A stretch of DNA of 55,906 nucleotides. Source: an uncultured SAR86 cluster bacterium. Its GTDB lineage: Bacteria > Pseudomonadota > Gammaproteobacteria > Magnimaribacterales > D2472. Where the stretch lies: positions 1 to 55,906 of the forward strand of contig CABXNE010000006.1 of the NCBI GenBank assembly GCA_902513515.1, written 5' to 3'. The notes below the pieces were generated by a model that was not told where the DNA came from, made no database searches, and worked only from the letters and a program-made list of their open reading frames with translations. Below, piece after piece: positions 274 to 6,968 of the stretch. A program made the position numbers and the translations under genes. How positions within the stretch are numbered: the first letter of the stretch is position 1; each line of letters begins with the position of its first letter.

Positions 274-1634
274 TGTTCGTAAAAAAAATATTCTTGAGTT
301 TTATATTTATTTTCAATGTTTCAGTCACGGCTAAATCTCTTGATCCAATCAAACTCCTTTCAGATTTTGTGGGTGTGGATACCATTAATCCTCCAGGCAA
401 TGAATCTAGAGCCGTGGATTTTTATGCAAAAATTTTTGAAGAGGAGGGCATCGAATATTTCACTGGAGAAAGTGCACCTGGCAGAGGAAATATCTGGGCA
501 AGAATTAAAGGTGGAGATAAGCCTGCATTAATTCTTCTGCAACATACCGATGTTGTCCCTGCGTCAAAAGATTACTGGGAAACTGATCCTATGATTGCTG
601 AAATTAAAGATGGATATCTTTATGGCAGAGGCGTTATTGATATGAAAGGAGCTGGTATTTCTCATCTTATATCTTTTATCAGACTGCACAGAGAAAATAA
701 GAAATTAAATAGAGACTTGGTTTTTTTAGCAACCGCAGATGAGGAGGCTGGAGGTCTTTATGGGGCAGGCTGGATGATAGAAAATCATCCTGAGGTATTT
801 GAGGGCGCTGGTTATCTAATCAACGAGGGTGGTAGCGGTTTAAAAATTGGTGACGATACAGTTTTTTCCATTGAAGTTACTCAAAAAGTACCTGTTTGGC
901 TTAGATTAATAGCTACCGATGAACCCGGTCATGGCTCGTCACCAAGAGCAACCAGTTCGGTTTCTCGCATTGTCCATGCCTTGAATTTAATCAGAGAGAA
1001 CCCATTTCCTGCTAGAATTATTCCAGCTGTAGACACATATTTTAAAAGCCTTTCTTTAAATATGAATGGTCAAAATGCTGAGGCATTTGCGGACATCAAA
1101 AAAGCAATTAAGCAAGATGGCTTTCTTGAAAAGTTACAAGAATTCTCTCCCTCTTATCATGCATTAACAAGAGATACATGCTCACTCACAATGCTTCAGG
1201 GTTCTCAAAAAATTAATGTTGTGCCGCCAGTTGCGCAAGCTGAAGTTGATTGTAGAATGTTGCCTGACAGGAGCTCCGATGAATTTATTCAGGATTTTAA
1301 TAATTTAATCAAGCCTGCAGGCGTTGAAGTCGAGCTTATTCTTGCTTTTGCTCCCGCAGTCTCATCAACTGACTCCGAATTCTTTCAGCATATCGAATCT
1401 ATCACAGCTTCTATACATTCAGGATCAAGAGTAGCTCCGGCGGTTAGTACTGGCTTTACTGATAGTCATTTTACTCGTGAGTTGGGTATTGATAGCTATG
1501 GTTTTAATCCTATTATCTTTGATCCAAATGATTTTTCTGGCGTGCATGGAAACAATGAGAGAGTTAAAGTTAGTAGCTATCTTCAAGGCACTGAAGATCT
1601 TCATCAAATTGTCAGCCAGTTTGTTCTTGATTAA
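270..1634 (+). CDS. M20 family metallopeptidase (ArgE/DapE/CPG2-like), secreted
   Basis: Signal-like N-terminus; LLQHTDVVPA, GRGVIDMKG, ATADEEAGG motifs. Confidence 0.9.
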   Translation: MMFVKKIFLSFIFIFNVSVTAKSLDPIKLLSDFVGVDTINPPGNESRAVDFYAKIFEEEGIEYFTGESAPGRGNIWARIKGGDKPALILLQHTDVVPASKDYWETDPMIAEIKDGYLYGRGVIDMKGAGISHLISFIRLHRENKKLNRDLVFLATADEEAGGLYGAGWMIENHPEVFEGAGYLINEGGSGLKIGDDTVFSIEVTQKVPVWLRLIATDEPGHGSSPRATSSVSRIVHALNLIRENPFPARIIPAVDTYFKSLSLNMNGQNAEAFADIKKAIKQDGFLEKLQEFSPSYHALTRDTCSLTMLQGSQKINVVPPVAQAEVDCRMLPDRSSDEFIQDFNNLIKPAGVEVELILAFAPAVSSTDSEFFQHIESITASIHSGSRVAPAVSTGFTDSHFTRELGIDSYGFNPIIFDPNDFSGVHGNNERVKVSSYLQGTEDLHQIVSQFVLD

Positions 1635-3675
1635 TTTAATTCAAAAAAATATTTTTAGAGCCTTCATTGGTTTTTTAATAATTTTTACACTAAATTTATA
1701 TTCTGAAGATCAATCTGATGCAGATAGTTTCTTTGGAAGAGAAGCACCCATTTATCCTTTGCCAGATAATTTGATTGGCTGGATAGACTCAAGACAAATT
1801 TTGACCCTGAACGGTGAATGGAGTTACATAGTTGATCCAATGAACAACGGCTTACCTGAGTCATCATTTTTTGGTGGATTTCCTAAAAATAAAATTCAAA
1901 AAACAGGCATGGAGTTAATTGAATACAATTTTGAAACCGCATCAAAAATTCAAATTCCTGGAGCTTGGAATGCTGAAGATGAAAAGTTATTTTTTTACAG
2001 AGGCCCAGTTTGGCTTTACAAGAAATTTAATTATTTACCTAAACAAGATGCTTTAACTCATCTCTACATAGAGGGTAGTAATTTCACCACAAAAATTTTC
2101 CTTAATGGTTCTATTGTGGGAGAGTTTGAAGGTGGTTATGTTCCATTTAATTTCGATATTTCTAAGTATTTAAAAGAAGGCGAGAACATCTTACTAGTGC
2201 AAACAGACAACACTCTCAATGAGTCATCTGTTCCAACGCAAAAAACTGATTGGTGGCCATGGGGAGGTATTGTTGGTGATGTGTATATTGTTGAGACACC
2301 AAAGCAATTTATTCAAAATGCATATATACAACTTAATCCAGAAAATTTTTCTGAAGTTTTATTCAAGCTTGAGATAAATAAAAAATCTGTAGGGCATAAA
2401 ATAAAGCTTGAAATTCCCGAGCTTCAATTCAAAGCTGAATATCAAACAAATTCCCTAGGTTTAGTTAAAGAAAATATAGAAATTAACCCTCAACTCTGGT
2501 CACCTTCAAGCCCTAAGCTGTATGAGGTAATCATTTCTTCCAATGCTGAAACTATTTCTGATGAGATAGGGTTTCGTTCTATCAAAACACAAGGCCAAAA
2601 AATATATTTAAATGACCGTGAGATTAAATTTAAGGGAATTGCCATGCACTCTGAACCTATTGGAACTCCAGGACCAGCTTTTTCAAAGGAGCATTTTCAA
2701 GAATTACTATCAACCGCTAAAGATCTCAATATTAATTTTATAAGAGCGGCACATTATCCCTACACACGACATCTTGCTAAGGTTGCTGATCGATTTGGAT
2801 TAATGCTTTGGGAGGAGGTGCCTGTTTATTGGAATATTGATTGGAACAATTCTGATACATTGAATATAGCAAAGAACCAAATCGCTAGATTGGTTCAAAG
2901 AGATCAAAACAGAGCATCTGTGGTAGTTTGGTCCGTAGCAAATGAAACTCCGCTATCCTCGCCAAGAATGAAATTCTTAGATGCGCTTCTGTCTGAGATA
3001 GAAGCGCATGACTCATCACGCTTATCAACCGCTGCTCTTTTGTCTGGTAGTGAAGAGCAATTTAGATCGCTGGTTCTTGTTTTAGCATTACAGGGAGCTA
3101 AATCCCAATGGGTTAACCCAAAAGAAAAAGCTATTTTTCGATTAATTCTAGATCAAGCAAACATACCGATTAATACCGAATTAGCTTTCTCTCTTTCCAT
3201 TGATGACCCGCTTGGGGAGAGCGTTGATTTGATTTCTTATAATGAATACTTTGGCTGGTACTACGTAACATTTTTTACAGAGCAAATGATGATTTCTGAA
3301 GGCACTCTTAGGAAATTAATGTTTGAGATTATGCCTAAGATTAAAATTGCCTCTTCATTCAATAAGCCTATTCATATTTCTGAATTTGGTGCGGGCGCAA
3401 AATTTGGCAATCATTCTAATAAGATCTGGTCTGAGGAATACCAGGCTAAATTATATGCGCGTCAACTAGAAATGCTTTCAAATAACCCTCAAATTCAAGG
3501 AATTAGTCCCTGGGTCTTCAAAGATTTTAGAGCCATGTTAAGGCCATTGCCTGGAATTCAAGATTTTTATAACAGAAAAGGCTTGATAGATGAGGCTGGA
3601 AATAAAAAAATGGCTTTTGAAGTTTTAGCAGATTTTTATAAAAATAAATGGAATAAAGAAACTACCTCAAATTAG
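1627..3675 (+). CDS. Glycoside hydrolase family 2 (beta-galactosidase/glucuronidase-like)
   Basis: Jelly-roll then TIM barrel motifs (GIAMHSEPIGTPG, NFIRAAHYPYTR, WEEVPVYW, VVVWSVANETP, ISEFGAG). Start uncertain; ORF track opens at 1477, probably a TTG near 1621-1627. Confidence 0.88.
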   Translation: MINLIQKNIFRAFIGFLIIFTLNLYSEDQSDADSFFGREAPIYPLPDNLIGWIDSRQILTLNGEWSYIVDPMNNGLPESSFFGGFPKNKIQKTGMELIEYNFETASKIQIPGAWNAEDEKLFFYRGPVWLYKKFNYLPKQDALTHLYIEGSNFTTKIFLNGSIVGEFEGGYVPFNFDISKYLKEGENILLVQTDNTLNESSVPTQKTDWWPWGGIVGDVYIVETPKQFIQNAYIQLNPENFSEVLFKLEINKKSVGHKIKLEIPELQFKAEYQTNSLGLVKENIEINPQLWSPSSPKLYEVIISSNAETISDEIGFRSIKTQGQKIYLNDREIKFKGIAMHSEPIGTPGPAFSKEHFQELLSTAKDLNINFIRAAHYPYTRHLAKVADRFGLMLWEEVPVYWNIDWNNSDTLNIAKNQIARLVQRDQNRASVVVWSVANETPLSSPRMKFLDALLSEIEAHDSSRLSTAALLSGSEEQFRSLVLVLALQGAKSQWVNPKEKAIFRLILDQANIPINTELAFSLSIDDPLGESVDLISYNEYFGWYYVTFFTEQMMISEGTLRKLMFEIMPKIKIASSFNKPIHISEFGAGAKFGNHSNKIWSEEYQAKLYARQLEMLSNNPQIQGISPWVFKDFRAMLRPLPGIQDFYNRKGLIDEAGNKKMAFEVLADFYKNKWNKETTSN

Positions 3676-3695
3676 TTATATTTTTTTTAAAAAAA

Positions 3696-3951
3696 GTGTT
3701 GACTCTATTTCCCAAAGGCGTATATTTAATAGACCAACTCGGACCGACTTACAAACAACTGCAGACGGGAGTAAGAGAGAAAGAGAAGGAAGAGACGAAG
3801 GGCGAAAGCGATACTAAGAGTCGACGATAAAAAAGAGCTTAGTAACCCACCAAGAAGGAAAGAGAAAACCTTCAAGGAGCTAAAGAGATTCTCACTTTAG
3901 ACCCCTTCCAATCTCGAACTGAAAAGACAGAGCCTGGCTCTGTTTTTTTTT
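3696..3951 (+). repeat. Copy 1 of a ~250-bp direct repeat (promoter + ncRNA + terminator)
   Basis: Read base by base, 3696-3942 is identical to 5528-5774 (offset 1832), followed by T10 versus T9. Confidence 0.97.
3699..3726 (+). promoter_or_regulatory. Sigma70-like promoter of ncRNA copy 1
   Basis: TTGACT (3699-3704), 16-nt spacer, TATATT (3721-3726). Confidence 0.75.
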
Positions 3952-3952
3952 T
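3731..3952 (+). ncRNA. Putative novel ~220-nt small RNA, copy 1
   Basis: Promoter upstream, intrinsic terminator downstream, no ATG in the repeat. Potential hairpins CTTAC/GTAAG (3748-3775), TACTAAG/CTTAGTA (3812-3844), GAAGG/CCTTC (3854-3873), TAAAG/CTTTA (3881-3899). Confidence 0.8.
3928..3952 (+). terminator. Rho-independent terminator of ncRNA copy 1
   Basis: CAGAGCCTGGCTCTG inverted repeat followed by T10. Confidence 0.9.
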
Positions 3953-3970
3953 GCCTTTAGAAAATTAAGC

Positions 3971-4597
3971 ATGTTAGATCAATTACTTGAAAATACGATT
4001 TTACTATTTGTTGCGGTTGATCCAATTGCGCTCGTTCCTATTTTTGCAAGCCTTACACAAGGTTTAAATAAAAATGATATTAAGAAAATCTATCTTCAAG
4101 CAACCATAGTTTCTTTTTTTATATTATCTTTATTTTATTTATTTGGAACTGCAATATTGGATGTCATGGGTATTTCAATGAGTTCATTTAAAATAATCGG
4201 TGGCTTATTTCTGGTTGCAATTGCATTTCAAATGGTTCTCGAGCAAAGACAAACTCGACGACAGAATACAGCTGAAGTGGCGCTAGATGATGAATCTATT
4301 CAATCTCTTGCAATTTTTCCATTAGCAATTCCTTTGATTGCAGGCCCTGGCGCAATGACTACCGCCTTACTTATAGCTGAATCGAATGCAAACGACCTAA
4401 CTGAGATACTAATAAACTTTACTCCGATTTTGATAATTATTATTTTAGTGGCTTTCGCAATGTGGCTTTCTGCCAGTCTCTCAAAAAAAGTTGGCCCTAC
4501 CATTATTATCGTTGTCCAAAAGATCTTTGGAATATTGCTTGGGGCTCTTGCTATAGAGTTTGTAGTTGCAGGCATTATTGAATCTTTTAAATTATAA
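3971..4597 (+). CDS. MarC family integral membrane protein
   Basis: MarC-type sequence (FVAVDPIALVPIFASLT..., FPLAIPLIAGPGAMTTALLIA). Confidence 0.88.
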   Translation: MLDQLLENTILLFVAVDPIALVPIFASLTQGLNKNDIKKIYLQATIVSFFILSLFYLFGTAILDVMGISMSSFKIIGGLFLVAIAFQMVLEQRQTRRQNTAEVALDDESIQSLAIFPLAIPLIAGPGAMTTALLIAESNANDLTEILINFTPILIIIILVAFAMWLSASLSKKVGPTIIIVVQKIFGILLGALAIEFVVAGIIESFKL

Positions 4598-4633
4598 GGT
4601 TTCTATAATTTTATTACTTATAACTATTAATTT

Positions 4634-5476
4634 ATGCAAGAAAATACGAGAGCATTAATTGTTGAAGGCGGCGGAAGCAGGGGAGTCTTTTCGTTTGGAG
4701 TTATAGATTCATTTATTCAGGCATCGTATAACCCATTTGATATTCATTTAGGCGTATCTAACGGAGCAGTAGTTCAGCTTTGGTATTTATTAAAAGTGGC
4801 TGATTATAACTTAGACAAAATGTTATTTTCTGCATCCAAGAATTATGTTCGATACTCTAATATTTTTTTGAACAAAAGCATTATGGATTTTGAAAAATTA
4901 TATCAAGATGCTAATAAAGTTTTTCCTATAGATTTTGATCGTCTCCAAAATAACTTAAAGGGTAAAAATTTTTATGTTGTTGTTTCTGATGCAGCAACCG
5001 GCAATCCAGAATACATTGAATTATCTAAAAAGAATTATATAAATGAAATGCTTGCAACAGGGTCTTTACCTATTTTGATGAAAAATCCAATTTTATTAGA
5101 TGGCAGAAGAAAATATGACGGTGGAATAACTGACCCAATTCCAGTTCAAAAAGCTTACGAATTGGGTGCGCGAGAAATTGTGATTATAAGAACCTATGAG
5201 GAGTCATTTATTAGAAAAACTAAGTTAGAGAATCATATTGCTGCTTTTGCTACTAGGCACCATCCAAAGATTTCAAATGCATTAAAAACGAATACAGCCA
5301 CTTACAACTCTGCTCTCAAATTTATTAAAAACCCGCCGAAAGATTGTAAAATTACACAAATATGCCCTCCAAATAGATTAAGAGCCAGGAGAGCCACTAC
5401 AAACATCAATATTATGAAAGGAGATTATCAGGTAGGCCTAATTCAAGGCAAAGAATATCTAAATAATAATTCTTAA
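4634..5476 (+). CDS. Patatin-like phospholipase family protein
   Basis: GGGSRG oxyanion motif, GVSNGA (GxSxG) and DGGITDPIP (DGG). Confidence 0.9.
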   Translation: MQENTRALIVEGGGSRGVFSFGVIDSFIQASYNPFDIHLGVSNGAVVQLWYLLKVADYNLDKMLFSASKNYVRYSNIFLNKSIMDFEKLYQDANKVFPIDFDRLQNNLKGKNFYVVVSDAATGNPEYIELSKKNYINEMLATGSLPILMKNPILLDGRRKYDGGITDPIPVQKAYELGAREIVIIRTYEESFIRKTKLENHIAAFATRHHPKISNALKTNTATYNSALKFIKNPPKDCKITQICPPNRLRARRATTNINIMKGDYQVGLIQGKEYLNNNS

Positions 5477-5530
5477 AATACTGATTTGAGGTAATTTTTT
5501 TAATTAATATATTTTTTTTACACTTAGGTG

Positions 5531-5558
5531 TTGACTCTATTTCCCAAAGGCGTATATT
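5531..5558 (+). promoter_or_regulatory. Sigma70-like promoter of ncRNA copy 2
   Basis: TTGACT (5531-5536), 16-nt spacer, TATATT (5553-5558). Confidence 0.75.
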
Positions 5559-5562
5559 TAAT

Positions 5563-5783
5563 AGACCAACTCGGACCGACTTACAAACAACTGCAGACGG
5601 GAGTAAGAGAGAAAGAGAAGGAAGAGACGAAGGGCGAAAGCGATACTAAGAGTCGACGATAAAAAAGAGCTTAGTAACCCACCAAGAAGGAAAGAGAAAA
5701 CCTTCAAGGAGCTAAAGAGATTCTCACTTTAGACCCCTTCCAATCTCGAACTGAAAAGACAGAGCCTGGCTCTGTTTTTTTTT
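5563..5783 (+). ncRNA. Putative novel ~220-nt small RNA, copy 2
   Basis: Identical to copy 1; same promoter, hairpins and terminator. Confidence 0.8.
5760..5783 (+). terminator. Rho-independent terminator of ncRNA copy 2
   Basis: CAGAGCCTGGCTCTG followed by T9. Confidence 0.9.
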
Positions 5784-5861: not shown

Positions 5862-6968
5862 ATGTCAGTCACCATAAAAGATGTTTCTAAAGATGCAGGA
5901 GTATCCATTAGAACTGTTTCACGAGTTATTAACAACGAACCAAATATTGCACACACTACAAAAAGTAAAGTTTTGATTTCAATAGAAAAGCTTGGTTTTA
6001 AACCCAACAAAAGTGCCCAGACTTTAAGGTTAAATAAATCCTATCTTGCTGGCAGAGTTTTACTGATTGATATTGGCGGAACAAACATTAGATCGGCTCA
6101 AGCTGATGTTGGTTCAAATGACTTACAAAATGTTAATAAACAGAAGCTAGATTCCTTGGATTCATTTGATGAGATCTTGTTAAATTTTCTAGATGCAGAC
6201 TCATCTATAAAACATATAGTTTTTTCTATAGCTGGTCCAAAATTTAATAATTCTATTTCAATGACAAATAGAAAATTTACAATAGACAAAGAAAAGATTT
6301 TAAAAAATTTTTCTATAGATTCATGCCATATCCTTAATGATTGGGAGTCGATAGGCCACAGCTTTTCTCTTTTTACAATAGATGAAATGAAGATAGTTAA
6401 TCCAGGAAAATCTTTTAATGATGCAGCATTAATTATTGGGCCAGGAACTGGCTTGGGCGCAGCTCAGGTCATTGGGGATGACATTGTTCTCCCAACTGAA
6501 ATTGGTAACAGCTCATTTAGAATCCCAAGCTTGTTAAGCGAATTAGGTATCTTAAATGATACAAGTTTTAATGTTATTGAGGATTTAATCTCTGGAAGAG
6601 GGCTATCAAAAATTTATTCATATTTTGCCAACGCTAAAAAGACTTCAGAACAGATAGTTGCAACCTACAATCAAGATCAATTTTCTCAAAAGAGTATAAA
6701 TATATTTTTAATAGCCTTCTCTCAAATTCTCTCTGAGCTTGCCTTGATATATATGCCAGGAAAGGGAATATATATTATGGGAAGTTTAATGCGTAATTTG
6801 CATAAATTTCTTGATACTGAAATTTTTATGAATAATTTTTTGATAAATAGAAAATCAATGCATGCAGATATCTTAGCTCAAATACCAATAGCATTAATTG
6901 AGAATGAAATGACTTGTTTGCATGGTAGCTTAAATTTCATCAACAAATTAAACCAAAACGTCAATTAG
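5862..6968 (+). CDS. LacI-type HTH fused to glucokinase-like (Glk/ASKHA) domain
   Basis: N-terminus TIKDVSKDAGVSIRTVSRVINNEPNIAHTTKSKV is a LacI HTH; then LLIDIGGTNIR, ILNDWESIG, IIGPGTGLGAA, SGRGLSKIY as in Glk. Confidence 0.85.
   Translation: MSVTIKDVSKDAGVSIRTVSRVINNEPNIAHTTKSKVLISIEKLGFKPNKSAQTLRLNKSYLAGRVLLIDIGGTNIRSAQADVGSNDLQNVNKQKLDSLDSFDEILLNFLDADSSIKHIVFSIAGPKFNNSISMTNRKFTIDKEKILKNFSIDSCHILNDWESIGHSFSLFTIDEMKIVNPGKSFNDAALIIGPGTGLGAAQVIGDDIVLPTEIGNSSFRIPSLLSELGILNDTSFNVIEDLISGRGLSKIYSYFANAKKTSEQIVATYNQDQFSQKSINIFLIAFSQILSELALIYMPGKGIYIMGSLMRNLHKFLDTEIFMNNFLINRKSMHADILAQIPIALIENEMTCLHGSLNFINKLNQNVN

Follow-up and report, generated by a model that had tools for sequence, protein, structure and literature searches.

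What is encoded by the one stretch of sequence that occurs twice, in the same orientation, in the 55.9 kb of SAR86-cluster DNA analyzed here (the window)? A repeat search of the whole window returned exactly one direct-repeat family of ≥40 nt, in which positions 3670-3951 and 5502-5783 are 96% identical across 282 nt at a spacing of 1832. Its perfectly identical core is a 256-nt unit on the + strand, with copy A at 3696-3951 and copy B, the same base for base, at 5528-5783. An earlier note on this DNA had correctly described the copies as identical and co-oriented but gave their length as 247 nt, nine bases short, ending inside the T-run. Its reading of the unit as promoter, RNA, and terminator stood: a promoter-like TTGACT and TATATT with a 16-nt spacer lie at 3699-3726 (copy B, 5531-5558), and an intrinsic terminator, with a 7-bp hairpin (ACAGAGC-CTG-GCTCTGT) and T-run, lies at 3927-3950 (copy B, 5759-5782). 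Scored by motif alone, promoter matches of this type were no commoner than in shuffled sequence; the promoter (TTG/TAtaaT) and terminator columns are conserved across families in the alignment of the unit. As the note had also said, no ATG occurs on the + strand of the unit, and the sole + strand ORF of at least 15 aa begins at GTG/TTG codons located upstream of the predicted transcript start. The genes flanking copy A encode a glycosyl hydrolase of family 2 (1477-3675) and MarC (3971-4597); those flanking copy B encode a patatin-like protein (4634-5476) and a LacI-glucokinase fusion (5862-6968). In this last ORF a DNA-binding domain of the LacI type (PF00356) is fused to one of glucokinase (PF02685); the ORF adjoins a 6-phosphogluconolactonase-like gene and is possibly a sugar-kinase-like regulator of unusual make-up.

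The earlier note had proposed a novel small RNA, a claim it held open to refutation by a confident Rfam match. Since just such a match was found by cmscan, the claim to novelty fell: both copies are IMES-1 (RF02034; 196.3 bits against a cut-off of 81, model positions 1-191, E 1e-44), at 3738-3927 in copy A and 5570-5759 in copy B, and they share with the Rfam family its full length, its fold, and its marine gammaproteobacterial hosts. Both units are genes for this already known RNA in a SAR86-cluster bacterium, and the note's broader reading, that a promoter and terminator of its own enclose a non-coding RNA gene kept in two near-identical copies, was correct. IMES-1 is reportedly among the most abundant non-ribosomal RNAs of surface-ocean bacteria, and SAR86 is one of the commonest bacterial groups of the ocean. 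The family was reportedly first published by Weinberg et al. in 2009, who are said to have found it very abundant in marine metatranscriptomes; it has been an RNA family without a function. That it might be the clade's own housekeeping RNA, either 6S or RNase P RNA, is suggested by a size near that of 6S and by a local likeness (AGGGUGAAAG) that visual inspection showed to RNase P RNA. We regard this as barely credible, considering that 6S RNA (RF00013) and all other Rfam families fell below their cut-offs in the unit (an AgrB match was sub-threshold only) and that separate genes exist for 6S RNA in 76 of 81 genomes and for RNase P RNA in 71 of 81, the window's genome included.

Across the SAR86 order, IMES-1 was above cut-off in 124 of 204 genomes, often in two copies, and among 369 genomes drawn across the class it was matched in three, all within that order. 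Profile-confirmed pattern matches in named genomes were likewise nearly all from a "SAR86 cluster bacterium." Genomes lacking a match are mostly incomplete and copies often lie at contig ends, making absence an unsafe sign of loss; the window's genome is itself an incomplete 1.09-Mb assembly (~64% complete). Divergent IMES-1 sequences (94-107 bits) occur on the related contigs L115 (labeled gamma proteobacterium), L149 (Woeseia sp.), and L200 (Gammaproteobacteria), with a tRNA gene of the same score ~3 kb away. Near-SAR86 copies under the labels Pseudohongiella, Neomarinimicrobiota, Bdellovibrionota, and Woeseiaceae (L097, L147, L194, L207) are probably from mislabeled or contaminated bins, and a weak match in G005 (27 bits) was set aside as having none of the IMES-1 motifs. 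A loose pattern search of viral contigs gave 118 stretches, with a partial IMES-1 on only one of them, at the end of a 2-kb "viral" IMG/VR contig (L328) that is probably a misclassified bacterial fragment.

Many relatives carry two IMES-1 copies in the same neighborhood, some on a 1.2-Mb contig. Because of this, and because the flanks of the window's copies differ on one contig, an assembly duplication, which the earlier note had named as a possible undoing of its claim, is unlikely. In nine two-copy genomes of the genus, in which the copies flank the patatin gene, copies within a genome were 97.7% identical on average, compared with 93.9% for copies at the same position across genomes, which is no more than the 93.8% found crosswise. 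IMES-1 copies evolve in concert, the pattern of gene conversion that the note had suggested and that accounts for the perfect identity of the copies in the window. Two identical copies, variation among relatives in the genes between them, and a genome (G031) with the repeat at both contig ends could also be read as signs of a mobile element or of an artefact of assembly. This is very improbable, since the repeat consists of exactly promoter, RNA, and terminator and has neither a transposase nor terminal inverted repeats, its neighborhood is conserved in several species, phage and plasmid records held no IMES-1 match, and the RNA itself covaries, as described below. Among close relatives (L035, L038, L039, L040, and L043), the genes between and around the two copies are reshuffled; in G000 and G012 the MarC gene falls between the two copies, in G021 and G011 it falls outside them, and ~9 kb is inserted at the pair in G007 and G010. 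The repeats may act as recombination points. On contig C2 of G031 (L104, L168), 279 kb long, IMES-1 lies at both ends in inverted orientation, which indicates that assemblies break at the repeat and that copy numbers are perhaps under-counted. Beyond the genus, neighbor genes vary between genera, so a role of IMES-1 in cis is unlikely.

The test of the fold covered 70 distinct sequences, taken from families f1, f2, and f4 and the divergent contigs. The Rfam-based structure was the one counted, RNAalifold alone having recovered H2-H4 and missed H1 and the closing helices. In this structure 85.1% of cells were paired (66.5% in shuffles), both-sided changes were seen in 474 cells (148 in shuffles), and the covariation score was 0.481, compared with 0.166 for shuffled alignments and ≤0.15 when partners were slid by one to three columns. 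The consensus fold of RF02034 is thus kept by covariation. The RNA is predicted to form two domains, one the H1 stem-loop and the other a multibranch fold in which a GAAGGG/CCCUUC helix closes around H2, H3, and H4. Within the latter, GAGA of the H3 loop (3862-3865; copy B, 5694-5697) and TCTC of the H4 loop (3890-3893; copy B, 5722-5725) are the halves of a predicted intramolecular kissing contact. Its cells are 90% paired, and the two sides change jointly, to GAAA/UUUC in L200 and to GGGU/ACCC, AGGU/ACCU, and similar pairs in a second family, IMES-5, discussed below. The Rfam structure leaves the loops of H1 and H2 unpaired, and it is these that we found to be palindromic; to that structure we add their predicted self-pairing and the contact between H3 and H4.

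The H1 loop of the window's copies is CTGCAG in the context AA[CTGCAG]A (3759-3764; copy B, 5591-5596), and the H2 loop is GTCGAC followed by an A-rich tract (3820-3825; copy B, 5652-5657). H1 reads CUGCAG in f1 and f4, CUCGAG in f2, and CUUAAG in the divergent contigs, and it is a perfect palindrome in 120 of 121 distinct sequences; the self-complementary fraction of this window is 0.99, compared with an average of 0.037 over 174 six-column windows (122 distinct sequences). H2 is far more changeable, with 11 forms (GUCGAC, as in the window, GUUGAC, GUCGGC, GUUAAC, GUCGAU, GUGCAU, GUAUAC, GCUAGC, GCAUGC, GCCGGC, and GGUACC), ten of them from 114 labeled rows and GCCGGC from another row. All 11 are self-complementary when G-U pairs are allowed, and seven are strictly so. 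When the 3' halves were reshuffled 2000 times, self-complementarity fell from the observed 100% to a mean of 42% and a maximum of 52%, and both-sided changes fell from 84 to 22; a random substitution leaves H2 self-complementary with a probability of only 19%. On a tree computed after removal of both hexamers, H2 changed at least 22 times and H1 about twice, the former being a soft count, as a 190-nt RNA yields a weakly resolved tree and the shuffles ignore relatedness. The MAFFT register of H2 shifts by three columns between families, and outside f1 the palindrome itself, next to an A-rich tract, was part of what placed the hexamer; within f1 its position is fixed, and seven forms occur there. 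Where a genome has two copies, the loops of both can cross-pair in 23 of 23 cases.

Adjacent bases at the center of such a hexamer are unable to pair in a single molecule, and the constraint is therefore taken as a sign of pairing between two molecules. As the palindromes of H1 and H2 lack complementarity to each other, two orthogonal contacts per molecule are predicted. Two other candidate pairings were rejected: H1-H2 pairing for want of complementarity, and pairing of H2 with the conserved 3' CUCGA, which stays constant while H2 becomes GUAUAC, GUUAAC, or GCAUGC. As free duplexes, GUUGAC, GUUAAC, and some other H2 forms are weak. IMES-1 could also act as a monomer whose loops pair with target mRNAs, the palindromes being incidental or kept by a two-fold-symmetric protein. 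The loops are indeed conserved and predicted to be accessible, and a dimeric protein could favor two-fold symmetric sites. However, target pairing needs no self-complementarity, and a protein that reads sequence would hardly accept 11 hexamers alike only in that respect; we consider the monomer unlikely. The covarying palindromes make IMES-1 concretely and cheaply testable, as to whether it dimerizes and through which loop.

An RNA with its own promoter and terminator, varied neighbors, and several GGA motifs could also be an ordinary trans-encoded small RNA dependent on Hfq or ProQ, or a CsrA sponge of the CsrB/RsmZ type. Against this, Hfq was found in 0 of 81 relatives of the SAR86 order and ProQ in 0 of 81, with controls matched, an absence that rests on the order as a whole given the incompleteness of the window's genome. 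In the IMES-1-bearing families f1 and f4, none of the genomes searched had CsrA, which was found only in f2 and f3; moreover, the number of GGA motifs is not conserved, ranging from 1 to 8, about that expected by chance. The usual explanations for a small RNA fail on these grounds and on those of the separate 6S and RNase P RNA genes, and the Hfq-, ProQ-, or CsrA-dependent RNA in particular is quite improbable. What remains, given the missing chaperones, the varied neighbors, and the separate housekeeping genes, is a trans-acting structured RNA independent of known chaperones. The absence of Hfq, ProQ, and CsrA also means that the small-RNA biology of SAR86 must differ from that of textbook gammaproteobacteria.

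Further evidence on which parts of the RNA matter came from IMES-5. An f3 sequence matched weakly, at full length, by the IMES-1 model (34 bits) proved to be IMES-5 (RF02995, 124 bits), and the IMES-5 model in turn matched f2 IMES-1 at 21 bits, in the same register and over the full length. The two families have in common a set of collinear motifs (ACUCGAGACG, AGGGUGAAA, CCAC, and CCCUUC), the multibranch fold, and the H3-H4 contact. IMES-5 differs in its shorter H2, which has no palindrome, in its length of ~150 nt, and in its distribution: all strong f3 matches are IMES-5, f1 and f4 carry IMES-1 only (IMES-5 was found in none of the f1 genomes searched and gave no match in the window), and f2 has both. 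In f2 the two genes lie ~14 kb apart on opposite strands and their H1 loops are alike (CUCGAG), with the exception of one IMES-5 (L283, CUAGAG). No clan uniting the families is listed in the Rfam version used. We take IMES-5 to be a divergent paralogue of IMES-1 that would have arisen by an old duplication. Joining the two gives a near order-wide distribution and reveals the essential parts. This relationship and the switching self-complementary loops are what is new here beyond Rfam, and neither was in the earlier note.

The best overall explanation, which we think likely to be correct, is that the twin genes encode an RNA that joins to itself through kissing loops into a dimer or chain and works in trans, either scaffolding or binding a protein as a particle. 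Each gene would be transcribed from its sigma-70-type promoter to its intrinsic terminator as a ~215-220-nt RNA, which would fold as described, with the covarying H3-H4 contact formed within each molecule. The self-complementary H1 and H2 hexamers would then form symmetric kissing loops between two IMES-1 molecules, a step well supported by covariation, and the product would be either a chain or a dimer with two points of contact. A second copy may raise the dosage, and gene conversion, evident in the concerted evolution of the copies, may serve to keep their loops mutually compatible. The weakest step is the last, in which the assembly would work in trans without Hfq, ProQ, or CsrA; among its candidate roles, that of scaffold or protein-binding particle is favored.

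To our knowledge, natural homo-oligomeric RNAs are few. A viral parallel is the dimerization initiation site of HIV-1, an A-flanked six-base palindrome in a single nine-base hairpin loop, AA[N6]A; the H1 loop of IMES-1 likewise reads AA[N6]A, and no homology is claimed. Closer in kind are OLE and GOLLD, for which a 2025 cryo-EM study took switching palindromes as support for intermolecular bridges: L9.3 of OLE switches from GGCC to GAUC or AGCU, and L21a of GOLLD switches between GC and CG (PMC12286853). That study of OLE, GOLLD, and ROOL makes no mention of IMES RNAs (PMC12286853). IMES-1 has the same trait, loop palindromes that switch and yet stay self-complementary, and as this is the accepted signature of symmetric kissing loops between molecules in OLE and GOLLD, IMES-1 probably forms homodimers or oligomers. 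A bolder form of this reading, which we put forward tentatively and hold at somewhat less than even chances, makes IMES-1 an ordered RNA-only assembly, a two-point C2 dimer or an alternating chain, whose contacts are two palindromic loops that are incompatible with each other. IMES-1 would then be a small counterpart of OLE, GOLLD, and ROOL in a lineage that lacks Hfq and ProQ and, in part, CsrA, and would form one superfamily with IMES-5, the members of which may also pair with each other through the common CUCGAG loop in f2. OLE, GOLLD, and ROOL are larger, have no sequence relation to IMES-1 (none of the three matched in the unit by cmscan), and were seen as oligomers by cryo-EM, whereas IMES-1 is ~190 nt, is known here from sequence alone, and carries six-base palindromes in two loops. 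If the proposal is true, few homo-oligomeric RNAs would be simpler to study than this one, with its 190 nt and its contacts of six bases.
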